A program made the position numbers and the translations under genes. Below, one piece after another: positions 29,394-53,178 of a DNA stretch of 64,000 bases (within the stretch, counting starts at the first letter, position 1; each line of letters opens with the position of its first letter). The notes below the pieces were generated by a model. It did not search any database and was not told where the DNA came from. It saw nothing but the letters and a program-made list of their open reading frames with translations. Location of the stretch: the NCBI GenBank assembly GCA_021796435.1, contig JAJYXM010000016.1:936625-1000624 (forward strand), written 5' to 3'. Source of the stretch: a bacterium (GTDB taxonomy: Bacteria > Patescibacteriota > Patescibacteriia > 2-12-FULL-60-25).

Positions 29394-32300
29394 TCAGGTT
29401 ATCTTGACAGTGCCGGGGCCTAAAATGGCTTCGATCTGCTTCACGACTTCCTCGCTCCAGGCTATCTTGGCGGATGATTTTATGCGGCGCTGGCCGTCCA
29501 CGTCGTCGATGAGGAAATAGACCTGGTAAACGCCGACATACTCATCGAAAACGCGGCGCAGCTTGAGGATCACCGACTCCGGAAGGGTGGCGCGGACATG
29601 GAGGGAGATGGAACGGACTTCGTCCAGCGTACCGCGTACCTCGTACTGCGTACTAAACGCATCAGGATTGTGAGGGCTGGATGGCGATGCTTCCGTTGTA
29701 CGCGGTACGTCGTACGCGGTACGACTCTCCTCTCCCGCTATCTCATCGATATTCTGCTGCGTTATCTCATAGGCCGTCTCGACCAAGACCTTCATCTGAC
29801 CGTCCTTATCCTGCGGACGGCCCGAGACCACGAGGACGCGATCGATATCCCAACACGCGATGGTTTCGTTCAGGACGCGTGGGAAGACTATGGCCTCGCA
29901 CTTGCCTGTCAAATCCTCGATCTCGGCGAACAGCATGTTCTCGTTGTTCTTGGTGCGGATCTTCTTGGCCTGCGTCACGACGCCGGCGATGCGCACCTTC
30001 TTATCTTTGATGAAATCCCCGACATTGACGACCGGCGTCACCACTCCGGCCAGACGTGAAGCATATTCGCGATACGGGTGGCCCGAGATGTACAGGCCGA
30101 GGAGCTCTTTTTCCCACATCAGCATCTCGCGGCGATCGGCCGGAGGCGATGGTTTGAGCTGCAACGACGGCATCACGGAAGCGGAGGCGGAGGGCATGGC
30201 AAAGAGGTTGTATTGGCCGGAGGCGGCTTCGCGTTCCTGGTTCTTGTGGAATTCGAGCAAAGTCTCGATGTTGAACAAGAGCTGATTACGATCGCCGAAG
30301 CGGTCCAAAGCGCCGGAGCGGATCAAAGACTCGAGCGATTTACGGTTGATGATCTTACCCTTGAGACGGGACAGGAAATCCACCAGGTCGACGTACTTTC
30401 CGTTAGTCTTGCGTTCGTGGATTATCTGCTCCACGACATCCGCACCCAGGCCCTTGATGGCGACCAGGCCGAAGCGGATGGTCGGCTTGACGCCTGGCTG
30501 CGGATTCCTGACGCTGTCTTTGACGACGGAGAACCCGGGGAAAGATTCGTTGACGTCCGGCGGCAGCACTACCATGTCCATGCGGCGACATTCTTCGACC
30601 TCGATGGTGATGCGATCCAGGTTGTTGGTGTCAGAATTCATCAAGGCCGCCATGAAACATTCAGGCCAATGCGCTTTGAGGTATGCCGTCTGGTATGCGA
30701 TCAAGGCGTAACAAGCCGCATGCGATTTATTGAAACCATAAGCCGCGAATTCCTCGAACTGCTGGAAGATGGCTTCGGCCGTCTCACGCGGCACGCCGTT
30801 TCCGACCGAACCATCCACGAATTTGACTCGCATCTCGGCCATGAGTTTGGCGATCTTCTTGCCCATGGCTTTGCGCAACGTATCGGCCTGGCCGCCCGTG
30901 AAGCCGGCCATGTCTTTGGACACCTGCATGACCTGCTCCTGATAGACCGGGATGCCATAGGTGTTCGATAAAGCGTTCTTGAGCAGCGGATGCATGTAAG
31001 AGATCTTCTCGCGGCCGTGTTTACGCGCGATGAAGGAATCGATGAATTGCATCGGACCAGGACGATAGAGCGCGACCATGGCGATGATGTCTTCGATGAC
31101 CGACGGCTTAAGTTCTTTGATGTAGCGCTTCATGCCGTCGGATTCAAGCTGGAACACGCCGGTAGTCTCTCCTTTACCCAAGAGATCGTACGTCTGCACG
31201 TCATCCAAAGGCAACGAATCCATATCGACATGCACGTCGTGGACCGCTTCCATGATCTCCAAACATTCGCGGATGATGGTCAGGTTGGACAGACCGAGGA
31301 AGTCCATCTTGAGCAGGCCGACGACTTCGACGGGATGCAGGGAATATTGGATGACCTGATCGACGTCGCCGCCTTGGGCCTTCTGCAGCGGCGCGAACTC
31401 GACGAGCGGCGACGGTGCGATGACGATGCCGCAAGCATGCTGCGAAGCGTGTCGTGCAGTGCCTTCAAGCTTGATGGCCAAATCGATCAACTCGTGCACG
31501 CGCGGATCGGCTTCGTACATGGCCTTGAGCTCCGGTACTTCGACCACGGATTTGGCCAGCGGGATATGCCTACCCTGCACCGGCGGCGGGATGACTTTGG
31601 CCACCTGATCGACCTCCTGGAAAGTCAGACCAAGGACGCGCCCCACATCGCGGACAGCGGCGCGTGCCGCCATGGTCCCGAAGGTGATGATGCCGGCGAC
31701 GCGGTCCTGGCCGTATTTCTGCGTCACGTACTGGATGACGTCTTTGCGCTTGACGTCATCGAAGTCCATGTCGATATCAGGCATGGAGATACGGTCAGGG
31801 TTGAGGAAACGTTCGAAGAGCAAACCGTACGACAGCGGATCAAGGTTGGTAATCCTCAAGGCATAAGCGACGATCGAGCCGGCGGCTGAGCCGCGTCCAG
31901 GACCGACGATGACGCCGTTCTCCTTGGCCCAGTTGACGTAATCATGCACGATCAAGAAATACGCCGCGAATCCCATGCGCTCGATGGTCTCGAGTTCGAA
32001 CTCGAGACGTTCCTTGGCTTCGGTCGGTATGCCCGAGGTATAACGCTCCACCAAGCCTTCTTCGCACAATTTCCGCAGTTGCGAATCCGGCGTCATGCCT
32101 TCCGGAACCTCAAAGACTGGCAAATGGTTCTTACCCAGCTCGATGACCACATTACAGCGGTCGGCGATGCGACGCGTATTGGCGATGGCTTCCGGCGTTT
32201 CCACGAACGCCTCGACCATCTCTTGCGCTGTCGTCATCGAATGGTCGATGTTGGAGATGGTATAACGATTGTTGTCGGCGAGGAGTTTACCGTCATGGAT

Positions 32301-33008
32301 GCACTGCAACGCATCCTGAGCCTCCGTATAATCAGGATCCAGATAATGGACGTCCTTGGTCGCGACCAACGGCACAGCGAGCTTGTGCGCCAATTCGATC
32401 AGGCGGAAGTTGATGTCGTTCTGCGTGGCGGATTCCGGATGATGGACGAGCTCGATGAAGAAATTGTCCTTACCGAAGATGTCGAGATATTCGTGCACCA
32501 ATTCCTCGGCCTTATCCATATCGTGCGCTTGGGCGGCCTTGGGTATCTCCCCTTTCATGCAGCCGGAGAGCGCGATGAGACCATGGTGCATCTCGCGCAG
32601 GATGGATTTGTCCATACGCGGTTTGTAGTAGAAACCTTCGAGGAACGACGTAGAGACGAGCTTCAACAGGTTCTGATAGCCCTCGTTCGTCTCGGCCAGC
32701 AGAGTCAGATGGGAAAAATGGTCGTCGATGCGCGCACGCTTGTCGGTCAGCTTATTAGGCGCGAGATATGCCTCGACGCCGATGATCGGCTTGATCCCGG
32801 CCTTGGTCGCGGCTTCATAGAATTCGATCGTACCGTAAAGCGCCGCATGATCGGTGATCGCGATGGCGTCATAACCGAGCTCCTTGGCTTTCGCGACGAC
32901 TTCGGTCGCATCCCCTATCGCGTCCAACAGCGAATACATGGAGTGGACATGAAGATGGACGAACGGAGATTTGAGAGCTTCTTGTTCGCGATTTTCATCA
33001 TTCGTCAT
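29394..33008 (-). CDS. dnaE: DNA polymerase III alpha subunit
   Basis: 1204 residues. Replicative polymerase: N-terminal PHP domain (FVHLHVHSMYSLLDA, then AITDHAALYG), palm with PDIDMDFDD, fingers, helix-hairpin-helix region (GLVAIKGLG), OB fold (VRIAGVVTQAKKIR) and a C-terminal domain. Between the OB fold and the C-terminal domain (about residues 1094-1127) there is a linker encoded by GTACGCG-type repeats (SRTAYDVPRTTE, STQYEVRGTLDEVRS), apparently inserted in frame. The start overlaps the stop of the upstream AT-rich gene by 4 nt. Confidence 0.97.
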   Translation of the reverse strand: MTNDENREQEALKSPFVHLHVHSMYSLLDAIGDATEVVAKAKELGYDAIAITDHAALYGTIEFYEAATKAGIKPIIGVEAYLAPNKLTDKRARIDDHFSHLTLLAETNEGYQNLLKLVSTSFLEGFYYKPRMDKSILREMHHGLIALSGCMKGEIPKAAQAHDMDKAEELVHEYLDIFGKDNFFIELVHHPESATQNDINFRLIELAHKLAVPLVATKDVHYLDPDYTEAQDALQCIHDGKLLADNNRYTISNIDHSMTTAQEMVEAFVETPEAIANTRRIADRCNVVIELGKNHLPVFEVPEGMTPDSQLRKLCEEGLVERYTSGIPTEAKERLEFELETIERMGFAAYFLIVHDYVNWAKENGVIVGPGRGSAAGSIVAYALRITNLDPLSYGLLFERFLNPDRISMPDIDMDFDDVKRKDVIQYVTQKYGQDRVAGIITFGTMAARAAVRDVGRVLGLTFQEVDQVAKVIPPPVQGRHIPLAKSVVEVPELKAMYEADPRVHELIDLAIKLEGTARHASQHACGIVIAPSPLVEFAPLQKAQGGDVDQVIQYSLHPVEVVGLLKMDFLGLSNLTIIRECLEIMEAVHDVHVDMDSLPLDDVQTYDLLGKGETTGVFQLESDGMKRYIKELKPSVIEDIIAMVALYRPGPMQFIDSFIARKHGREKISYMHPLLKNALSNTYGIPVYQEQVMQVSKDMAGFTGGQADTLRKAMGKKIAKLMAEMRVKFVDGSVGNGVPRETAEAIFQQFEEFAAYGFNKSHAACYALIAYQTAYLKAHWPECFMAALMNSDTNNLDRITIEVEECRRMDMVVLPPDVNESFPGFSVVKDSVRNPQPGVKPTIRFGLVAIKGLGADVVEQIIHERKTNGKYVDLVDFLSRLKGKIINRKSLESLIRSGALDRFGDRNQLLFNIETLLEFHKNQEREAASGQYNLFAMPSASASVMPSLQLKPSPPADRREMLMWEKELLGLYISGHPYREYASRLAGVVTPVVNVGDFIKDKKVRIAGVVTQAKKIRTKNNENMLFAEIEDLTGKCEAIVFPRVLNETIACWDIDRVLVVSGRPQDKDGQMKVLVETAYEITQQNIDEIAGEESRTAYDVPRTTEASPSSPHNPDAFSTQYEVRGTLDEVRSISLHVRATLPESVILKLRRVFDEYVGVYQVYFLIDDVDGQRRIKSSAKIAWSEEVVKQIEAILGPGTVKIT
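29628..29654. repeat. GTAC-rich repeat array inside dnaE (a)
   Basis: cgtaccgcgtacctcgtact-type array of about 27 nt, three GTAC cores 8-11 nt apart, encoding QYEVRGTLDEV on the minus strand. Confidence 0.8.
29698..29725. repeat. GTAC-rich repeat array inside dnaE (b)
   Basis: gtacgcggtac twice, separated by gtc; encodes SRTAYDVPRTT on the minus strand. In frame and without a stop. Confidence 0.8.
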
Positions 33009-37259: not shown

Positions 37260-39749
37260 CTATCCCCTCATCTCGGCCTTGAACTTTTCCTTGAGCGCCA
37301 AAGTCACATTCTCCATCAAAGCATCGACTTCGGCGGATTCCAGCGTACGTTCCGATGAAGAGAACGTGATATGCATGGCGACCGATTTCTTGTCCGACGG
37401 AAGCTTCTCTCCGCGATAGGTGTCGAACCATTCGACGTCGCTGACCAAAGGATCAAGGGAAGCGATCACTTTGGCGATATCATCGTATTCGACGCGGAAA
37501 TCGACGACGACCGAAAGATCGCGCTTCGCCTCAGGGAAGGAAGTCACGGGTCGATATGGACGTATTTCCGCCGCCAGGCCGACGATGTCCTCGAAAGGGA
37601 TATCGACCAAGCCCACCGGCGATTCGAATTTGAAGTTCTTGGCGATCTTAGGCGACAATTCACCCAACGTGGCGACAAGTTTTTCTTTGACGAAAGCCTG
37701 GACGGAATGGCCGGGATGCCAGAATGAATCGTTATCAAGCCGTTTCCATGTGATGTTATCGAGGCCCATCTCATCCAAAAGATGCTCGACCGCTCCTTTT
37801 GCCGCCCGCCAAGGTTCAGGCATGCCCAGGAAGAGCATACCGACCTCCAGCTGCTCATCGGGGAGATTGGACCAGGGGGTATCCGTACCGCGTACCGCGT
37901 ACCGCGTACCGCCTGACGCCGGATAATAGACGTTAGCGATCTCGAAAAGCCGCTGCTCAGGGAAACGTTCGGTGTTTTCGGCGGCGACCTGAAGCAGGGA
38001 GGGCAAAAGGCTGGTGCGCATGACCTCGAACTCTGCCGTCAAAGGATTCTGTACATGGAGCATGCCCTTGGCGTCGTAATCGGCTTTCGCAAGGAGATCC
38101 TTGGAGACGAAGGAGTATGAATAGACCTCGGATAGACCGGCACCTTTCAGGATGTCGCGCGAACGCTTTTCCCAGACGAGTTCCGCGTCCATGGGCCGCG
38201 GCTGCAGACCGAACGGGATGATGCCCGGTATGTTGGCGTAGCCCTCGATGCGCGCGATCTCCTCGACCAGATCCCGGCCCAGCTCGATGTCATGATCACG
38301 CCACCACGGCACTTCGGCCTTGATCGACTTGCCCGTGGCCTGGACCTTGAAACCCAGGCGCCGTAGGCGGCTCACCATCTCGGTCTTGGGGATCTTCACG
38401 CCGATCAGAGAGTCGACTTCGTCCACGGTCGTGGAGAAAGAAAGAGGCCTGTATTTGGTCTGACCCACGTCGGTGATCCCGCCTTCGAGTTTCCCGCCGG
38501 CGAGTTCGAGTACGAGTTCGATGGTGCGCGTCATGGCGATCGGCGGAGCTTCGGTCGACAGACCTTTCTCGAAACGCTGTTGGGCGTCTGACTGGAGATT
38601 TATCTTGCGGGCGCCGCGGCGGATGCATACTGGCTCGAAAGTCGCGGCTTCGATGATGACGTCCGTCGTATTCAATGTGACGCCAGTCTGTTCGCCGCCC
38701 ATGACGCCGGCGATGGCTATGGGTTTAGCGTCATCGGCGATCAACAGGATCGTATCGTCGAGCTCATATGTCTTACCGTCCAAAGCTTGGATCTTCTCCC
38801 CTACACGTGAAAGCCGCACATCGATCCCGCCTTCCAAAGTGGCGGCATCGAAGATGTGCGTCGGTTGCGCTAATTCGAGCATCACATAGTTGGAGATGTC
38901 CACGATATTGTTGATCGGACGCAGACCCGCGGAGAGCAGACGGCGTTTGAGCCACCATGGCGATGGACCGACCTTGACGCCAGAGATCTTGGCGGCCATG
39001 TAACGCGGGCATTCTTTTTTGGCGGAGATCTTGACGGGGACTGCGTACCGCGTACCGCGTACCGCGTTCTTGGGCAGCGTTGGCTCTTTCCAGGTGAACT
39101 CACGATCAAGAATGGCCGAAGCTTCGCGAGCCATACCGACCATGCCCATGCAATCCACGCGGTTGGATGTGACTTCGATATCCAGGCCGACATCATCGCT
39201 TCCGCCAAGCACGTCAGCCAAAGGCGTACCGAGTTTCGGGATCTTGACTTTGGTTTTCGTATCATCCCAGCCTAATTCAAACCCCAGATCCAGGATCATG
39301 CGATCGGAATTAGGGAACGCTTCGCCTAATCCGATTTCACCAGAAGCGCAAATCATACCCTCGCTCTTGACCCCGCGAATTTCAGCCGGTTCCAGCACTA
39401 TCGGTTCGCCCTCGCCGTGCCAACGGACCTTTGCGCCGAGCAGCGCTACGGCGACATATTGTCCGAGTTCTAGGTTGGATCCGCCGCAGACGATGGACAA
39501 AGGCTCCGCGTTCCGCGCACCGCGTACATCGCCGACATCGACGGAGACGAGCTTGAGCTTGTCGGCGTTCGGATGCTTGTCGAGCTTCAGTATCTTGCCG
39601 ATGACGACTTTGTCGTCGAGTTCGGAGTTGAACTTGAGGATCTTCTCGACCGCAGGTCCGGAAAGCGAAATGCGCGCCGCGAACTGTTCGGGTGTTTCCT
39701 TGAGCTTGACGTATTGTTTAAGCCAGTCGTAAGAGACAATAGTGTTCAT
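37260..39749 (-). CDS. pheT: Phenylalanine--tRNA ligase beta subunit
   Basis: 829 residues: N-terminal tRNA-binding EMAP-like domain (about 40-155), B3/B4 editing domain (about 210-400), B5, catalytic-like core and C-terminal FDX-ACB anticodon-binding domain (about 735-829, YRPVTSFPEAKRDLSVVVD). Three in-frame insertions carry GTACGCG-like repeats: DVRGARNAEP near residue 75, NAVRGTRYAVPV near 230 and GGTRYAVRGTDTP near 615. Otherwise the domain order is normal. Follows pheS. Confidence 0.97.
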   Translation of the reverse strand: MNTIVSYDWLKQYVKLKETPEQFAARISLSGPAVEKILKFNSELDDKVVIGKILKLDKHPNADKLKLVSVDVGDVRGARNAEPLSIVCGGSNLELGQYVAVALLGAKVRWHGEGEPIVLEPAEIRGVKSEGMICASGEIGLGEAFPNSDRMILDLGFELGWDDTKTKVKIPKLGTPLADVLGGSDDVGLDIEVTSNRVDCMGMVGMAREASAILDREFTWKEPTLPKNAVRGTRYAVPVKISAKKECPRYMAAKISGVKVGPSPWWLKRRLLSAGLRPINNIVDISNYVMLELAQPTHIFDAATLEGGIDVRLSRVGEKIQALDGKTYELDDTILLIADDAKPIAIAGVMGGEQTGVTLNTTDVIIEAATFEPVCIRRGARKINLQSDAQQRFEKGLSTEAPPIAMTRTIELVLELAGGKLEGGITDVGQTKYRPLSFSTTVDEVDSLIGVKIPKTEMVSRLRRLGFKVQATGKSIKAEVPWWRDHDIELGRDLVEEIARIEGYANIPGIIPFGLQPRPMDAELVWEKRSRDILKGAGLSEVYSYSFVSKDLLAKADYDAKGMLHVQNPLTAEFEVMRTSLLPSLLQVAAENTERFPEQRLFEIANVYYPASGGTRYAVRGTDTPWSNLPDEQLEVGMLFLGMPEPWRAAKGAVEHLLDEMGLDNITWKRLDNDSFWHPGHSVQAFVKEKLVATLGELSPKIAKNFKFESPVGLVDIPFEDIVGLAAEIRPYRPVTSFPEAKRDLSVVVDFRVEYDDIAKVIASLDPLVSDVEWFDTYRGEKLPSDKKSVAMHITFSSSERTLESAEVDALMENVTLALKEKFKAEMRG
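37883..37912. repeat. GTAC repeat array in pheT (C-terminal insertion)
   Basis: Four copies of the CGTACCG unit in tandem (period 7 nt), encoding GTRYAVRGT on the minus strand. Confidence 0.85.
39042..39067. repeat. GTAC repeat array in pheT (editing-domain insertion)
   Basis: Three tandem CGTACCG units, encoding NAVRGTRYAVP on the minus strand. Confidence 0.85.
39507..39530. repeat. Degenerate GTAC repeat in pheT (tRNA-binding domain)
   Basis: cgcgttccgcgcaccgcgta, a decayed copy of the CGTACCG array, encoding VRGARNAE on the minus strand. Confidence 0.65.
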
Positions 39750-53099: not shown

Positions 53100-53172
53100 A
53101 TCGTACCGCGTACTTCGTACCACGTACCAAAGCCTGTCGCGCAAGCGCACGAAGTACGCGGTACCAGGTACG
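53100..53172. repeat. Inverted GTAC repeat arrays between lemA and htpX
   Basis: cgtaccgcgtacttcgtacc on the left and gaagtacgcggtaccaggta on the right form two opposed arrays around agcctgtcgcgcaagcgc. This is the intergenic form of the arrays in pheT and dnaE and can fold into a long hairpin. Confidence 0.85.
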
Positions 53173-53178
53173 AAAACC

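Follow-up and report, generated by a model that had tools for sequence, protein, structure and literature searches.

The window analysed here is the whole 64,000-nt stretch G000:C1:936625-1000624 of a 1.63-Mb Uhrbacteria genome (G000). It contains pheT, whose identity is supported by the NCBIfam equivalog TIGR00472 (score 684.7 bits, cut-off 402.65) and by solved PheRS homologues. Three short arrays of a 7-nt repeat lie within this gene, and two more elements of the same family are found elsewhere in the window.

37260-39749, minus strand: pheT, phenylalanine--tRNA ligase beta subunit, an ORF of 829 aa hosting three arrays
37884-37912, minus strand: array C, 4.1 units of GTACGCG (read as CGTACCG on the plus strand), all perfect
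39043-39067, minus strand: array B, 3.6 perfect GTACGCG units
39506-39531, minus strand: array A, degenerate, about 3 units (CGTTCCG CGCACCG CGTACAT)
29614-29654 (minus strand) and 29694-29724 (plus strand): inverted pair in dnaE, 39-nt spacer, in frame
53101-53174: intergenic inverted pair, 20-nt spacer, 6 nt past one ORF and 5 nt ahead of the next

The CGTACCG-type 7-nt repeats that the original prediction placed at three sites in pheT do exist, and counts in the window exclude chance as their source. The 14-mer CGTACCGCGTACCG has 32 matches at 3 mismatches or fewer, against 5.0 +/- 2.1 in shuffles, which excludes chance for repeats of this type. Seven arrays in the window score at least 33, against 27 for the best of 30 Markov resamples. 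Two of the three pheT sites are perfect tandem arrays; array A is weakly repetitive when taken alone, yet it belongs to the same family. The proposed unit, CGTACCG or GTACGCG, is likewise present, but the true unit is GTACGNR, in which GTACG is followed by two variable bases.

The arrays are translated within PheT. The minus-strand translation contains GGTRYAVRGT, NAVRGTRYAV and VRGARNAE, bearing out the RYAVRGT-like text that had been described. In an AlphaFold model of PheT, all three arrays are predicted to lie in coil with structured elements on either side: array A (residues ~75-82) between strands 66-71 and 84-88, array B (~228-237) between helix 203-214 and strand 239-241, and array C (~613-622) between strands 599-609 and 631-641. 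Three segments of the model have pLDDT below 50, and two of the three are arrays (613-624 in array C and 78-80 in array A). In an alignment of 31 PheT sequences, length varies in only a few loops, and all three array positions belong to them. The claim that the repeats occupy linkers or surface loops is thus upheld, with the added DNA in loops of variable length.

Comparison with relatives indicates what has been added at each site. The closest relative, Ess09-17 (L009/G001), has a PheT that is 90% identical, and aligning the two had been proposed as a way to see whether the segments are absent. At two sites the relative is shorter. Array C is 21 nt longer in G000, exactly 3 units, leaving Ess09-17 with 7 fewer residues at 37884, and array A is 18 nt longer, leaving it with 6 fewer at 39506. 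At 39043 the relative has residues and repeat alike; its array B is of equal length, with the repeat present but mutated. The refuting case set out beforehand, a close relative with equal residues but no nucleotide repeat, does not appear at any of the three sites in this relative. At the same position, G002 and G003 are shorter and carry unrelated sequence. Net length differences from relatives are 6, 18, 21, 27 or 36 nt rather than a constant insert, and no relative showed a cleanly empty site with sharp boundaries, the nearest being already ~10% diverged in PheT. Another repeat family is apparent in the PheT of a different relative (L016:3001-5517), where two loops carry one and the same segment (..GDxPRRKGGLPSAPT..), longer and not built of heptamers.

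Although the repeats were first presented as a pattern of pheT, the family is genome-wide and genus-level, as the window elements at 29614-29724 and 53101-53174 already illustrate. Exact 14-mer doublets number 26 in G000, 17 in G002, 1 in G001 and 0 in G003, with 0 for the reversed-pattern control. The 18-mer TACGNRGTACGNRGTACG, with one mismatch allowed, has 59 matches in G000, 42 in G001, 65 in G002, 0 in G003 and 12 in G028, against 0-2 for reversed controls in the same genomes. G001, G002 and G003 are congeners of G000, and G028 belongs to a different genus of the same family. Arrays are therefore abundant in three of the four species of the genus and sparse in G028, and a phylum sample of 287 genomes yields one exact match each in only 2 of the 286 other genomes. 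The GTACGNR family is largely confined to one Uhrbacteria genus. Its unit also varies by species, being mainly the CG variant in G000 and G002 and a mixture of AG, AA, CG and CA in G001. The reversed pattern GCATGRNGCATGRNGCAT is near zero almost everywhere in the phylum sample; the exception, the unrelated genome G198, has 14+6 matches, which suggests that a family with another heptamer unit is dispersed there. Two scans of IMG/VR viral contigs returned six rare matches (L221-L226), each with one or two GTACG arrays. Some of these contigs are possibly host DNA, and no phage record similar to them was found.

Local replication slippage has been proposed in general as the origin of heptanucleotide repeats in prokaryotes. 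Applied to GTACGNR, slippage would have expanded every array in place from a chance heptamer, an account that gains from the whole-unit difference in copy number between relatives at one pheT site and from the lead of period 7 among short tandem repeats in other Uhrbacteria as well. However, the GTACGNR sites number in the dozens, are unlinked, lie on either strand and in either orientation to genes, and are nearly restricted to one genus, so independent local growth alone is insufficient. Single units outside arrays are near the Markov expectation (39 copies of GTACGCG in 268 kb, where 32.1 are expected), leaving no surplus of seeds from which slippage could start. Slippage is accordingly a quite improbable source of the family.

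The arrays share a characteristic size and, when close together, a characteristic arrangement. Across G000, G001 and G002 the median length is 29 nt (IQR 27-32, n=91), or about 4 units. Arrays occur as single copies and as inverted pairs, the singles being commoner. Among 19 neighbouring pairs no more than 60 nt apart, 18 share one inverted orientation (left CGTACC.., right ..GTACG); their spacers measure 3-39 nt, and every one of these pairs is predicted to form a hairpin (-29 to -58 kcal/mol). The intergenic pair at 53101-53174 has a predicted hairpin of -30.5 kcal/mol. The dnaE pair, near the C-terminus of DnaE (ORF 29394-33008, minus strand; identified by NF005298), has one of -58.3 kcal/mol; it is common to G001 and absent from that place in G002. 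The G002 dnaE gene holds an independent inverted pair at another position (L121:718-803).

Such pairs invite comparison with a mobile palindromic element of the REPIN or Rickettsia type, in which the inverted pair would move via a transposase acting in trans and singles such as those in pheT would be decayed half-elements. The near-uniform inverted orientation, the short spacers and the predicted hairpins favour this explanation, but the spacers are unrelated to one another in sequence and length, singles are more frequent than pairs, and pheT itself has two perfect, undecayed singles. Nor do the arms co-evolve: complementarity between the two arms of a pair does not exceed that between arms taken from different pairs (permutation p 0.59). 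A PF01797 profile search found no match in G001, G003 or G028; the only Y1 matches are IS200-type fragments at contig ends in G000 and G002, with no arrays nearby, and G001 has arrays without a Y1 match. A link to RAYT is rejected on these grounds, and a mobile palindromic element as a whole seems unlikely. Several G002 contig ends (L202, L204, L205, L206) bear IS200-type TnpA fragments, and the IS therefore probably breaks the G002 assembly.

A survey of CGTACCG-type arrays and their frame across the genome, also proposed at the outset, finds dozens of copies, most of them genic. Arrays within ORFs number 34 of 40 in G000, 13 of 17 in G001 and 24 of 34 in G002 (71 of 91 in total; ORFs account for 90% of the DNA sampled, and the ORF calls are simple, with a few wrong). 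At least one such case, L064:3989, upstream of rnhB, is counted as an ORF array and really lies in a leader. Array-bearing segments were fused into a single query to retrieve orthologues, which were then aligned at the codon level. For 28 ORF-borne arrays in G000 the frame agrees with orthologues on both flanks, and one further array (L074) is in frame in a glycosyltransferase gene. The host proteins include DnaE, ValS, TyrS, IleS, LeuS, SecA, TsaD, TruB, RsmA, MutM, two UvrD-family helicases, a NifS-type desulfurase and an EpmA-type ligase. In orthologues from relatives, the array loops are often shorter or filled with unrelated sequence; the TruB and TsaD arrays are common to G000, G001 and G002. 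The relatives' loops in L094 (ValS), L104, L085 (LeuS) and L116 (MutM) resemble what we take to be other interspersed repeats (AVIPVEAGIQ, DPSTALRFVQDD, VGATHASPAARHALP, GAHAMRPGRVAHARTE). About 9 of the 34 ORF-borne arrays in G000 lie in aminoacyl-tRNA synthetases and their relatives (three in PheT, one each in ValS, TyrS, IleS and LeuS, two in EpmA; loci L057, L067, L068, L070 and the window pheT), a share far above the coding-DNA share of these genes, roughly estimated at 3%.

Two further explanations meet difficulties with this distribution. The arrays could be a functional DNA or RNA motif (an uptake sequence, a protein-binding site or a terminator) under selection or biased uptake. Intergenic pairs often lie close to gene ends, several beginning within 10 nt of a predicted end, and their hairpin potential speaks for such a role, but about three quarters of arrays lie in ORFs, in both orientations, and single units near the Markov expectation are unlike uptake sequences. 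A DNA uptake sequence is rejected because single heptamers outside arrays are not enriched, and a functional motif of any kind appears very unlikely. Alternatively, RYAVRGT could be an ordinary conserved protein motif in which the DNA repeat is incidental. Arrays in TsaD, TruB and DnaE are indeed common to species of the genus. However, array DNA is read in varied frames and on both strands, so that RYAVRGT-type and RTAYRVP-type stretches appear in proteins unrelated to one another, arrays occur between genes too, and there are relatives without them. The data already contradict the protein-motif reading, which retains next to no credibility.

For the reading frame of the genic copies, the original prediction offered two answers, a mechanism that keeps frame or strong selection, and the second is favoured. 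ORF-borne array lengths fall into the classes 0, 1 and 2 modulo 3 in 16, 24 and 31 cases, and intergenic arrays are much alike. Frame-keeping by element length is rejected, since lengths occur in all three classes; with no frame-keeping length present, purifying selection on the total change in length is enough. GTACGCG and GTACGAG have zero stop codons in all six frames, a property of about half of all heptamers. Thus, frame in genic arrays appears to be kept by selection, helped by a stop-free unit. No frame-broken array copies were seen, which fits selection and would equally fit a frame-keeping mechanism.

Taken together, the PheT segments are probably (at about 0.62) copies of a genus-specific dispersed repeat of roughly four GTACGNR units (28-32 nt) that is near-neutral or selfish and whose frame is held by selection. 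Under this explanation, arrays would be copied, singly or as inverted pairs, to dozens of sites. Because the main units are stop-free on both strands, a copy can stay within a gene wherever a loop tolerates it and the overall change in length comes to a multiple of three. The three pheT copies do lie in loops of this sort, and the only copy-number change visible there is a frame-keeping step (21 nt, 3 units). Frame-breaking copies and copy-number changes would arise too and then be purged by purifying selection. Frame-keeping machinery would not be required.

Dispersed heptamer repeats have been described in Xanthomonas (GGGAATC) and Nostoc (GGGGA(C/T)T) (PMC4692102). GTACGNR resembles the Xanthomonas repeat in its 7-nt unit with two variable positions, and both published families in that arrays mostly hold four units, are dispersed on both strands and form many close inverted pairs. 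Xanthomonas arrays are 89-93% intergenic, and their four-unit length has been tied to G-quadruplexes (PMC4692102). In contrast, about three quarters of GTACGNR arrays (71 of 91) lie in ORFs, in frame, and the mostly intergenic placement is not shared. GTACGNR has no G-tract, so quadruplexes are not a general reason for four units. TAACTGA direct repeats in Beggiatoaceae occur particularly upstream of start codons (PMC4679880). They too are dispersed heptamer arrays (of 2-6 units) limited to some lineages, but TAACTGA has stop codons in one orientation, whereas GTACGCG and GTACGAG are free of them in both orientations.

Rickettsia palindromic elements are ~150 bp long and encode a conserved peptide (reviewed in PMC10969869). 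The kinship to them that had been suggested holds only loosely, in that GTACGNR looks selfish, sits in frame in unrelated protein genes, core ones included, and forms inverted hairpin pairs at other sites. In pheT itself the arrays are single, direct rather than palindromic, and ~25-29 nt long, and the ~29-nt heptamer arrays in general vary in frame and in the peptide encoded. REPINs and REP doublets are extragenic and RAYT-associated (PMC3116915). A subset of the GTACGNR arrays, the 18 pairs, shares their inverted doublets, variable spacers and hairpin potential; tests for extragenic location and for a Y1/RAYT gene flanked by the repeat both gave a negative outcome. In Borg amino-acid tandem repeats, units within ORFs always have a length divisible by three, and almost every sequence is unique (PMC9879509). 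As in Borgs, tandem repeats add disordered protein segments with the frame unbroken; unlike in Borgs, the unit here measures 7 nt and a single sequence has been dispersed. Phase-variable simple sequence repeats change in copy number inside a population and thereby switch expression; for GTACGNR, the copy-number change seen is a step of 3 units between species, at one pheT site. GTACGNR is a dispersed heptamer-array family that differs from published ones by sitting mainly in frame within core protein genes. A literature search in which few subscription papers were covered found no description of such arrays in Patescibacteria.

Other heptamers occur in other Uhrbacteria. Within 230 kb around pheT, exact tandem repeats (period 4-21, self-match over at least 13 further bases) have period 7 in 10 cases, period 14 in 5 and any other period in 2. 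The heptamers, by locus, are as follows.

L012: AAAAGTC, CGCTCAC
L018: AAATTCC
L021: TCGAAGC
L024: CACTCGG, AATTTCC
L026: GACGAGC

All 8 coding cases lie in pheT, several in loops also used by GTACGNR, and array length is mostly 20-32 nt irrespective of the unit. TCGAAGC doublets are dispersed in the L021 genome, with 20 matches there and at most 1 in each of seven other genomes; the reversed-pattern control is uninformative for this count, because the reversed word is a shifted copy of TCGAAGC. The L021 arrays are mostly ~31 nt long and in frame in ORFs. The most intriguing point is that an array length of ~30 nt recurs whatever the sequence, with few cases behind it.

These observations allow a broader and tentative proposal: Uhrbacteria, and perhaps bacteria more widely, may have a so far unrecognised process that takes any heptamer, builds it into arrays of roughly four units (28-32 nt) and spreads these, often as inverted pairs; each lineage would have its own dialect, and in Uhrbacteria the arrays would come to rest, frame intact, in core-protein loops. 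If true, GTACGNR would be the dialect here and TCGAAGC, AAAAGTC, AATTTCC, CACTCGG and GACGAGC dialects elsewhere, and the Xanthomonas and Nostoc repeats would be further cases of one process rather than of quadruplex selection. Since the heptamer varies by lineage and array length is similar, comparison of strains could reveal the copying mechanism directly. Dispersed heptamer arrays have so far been described as mainly intergenic. The same architecture of four units and inverted pairs is found here with units that are not G-rich, which removes quadruplex formation as its general reason, and inside essential genes of streamlined genomes, where it shows a way for short repeats to extend protein loops with the reading frame intact.
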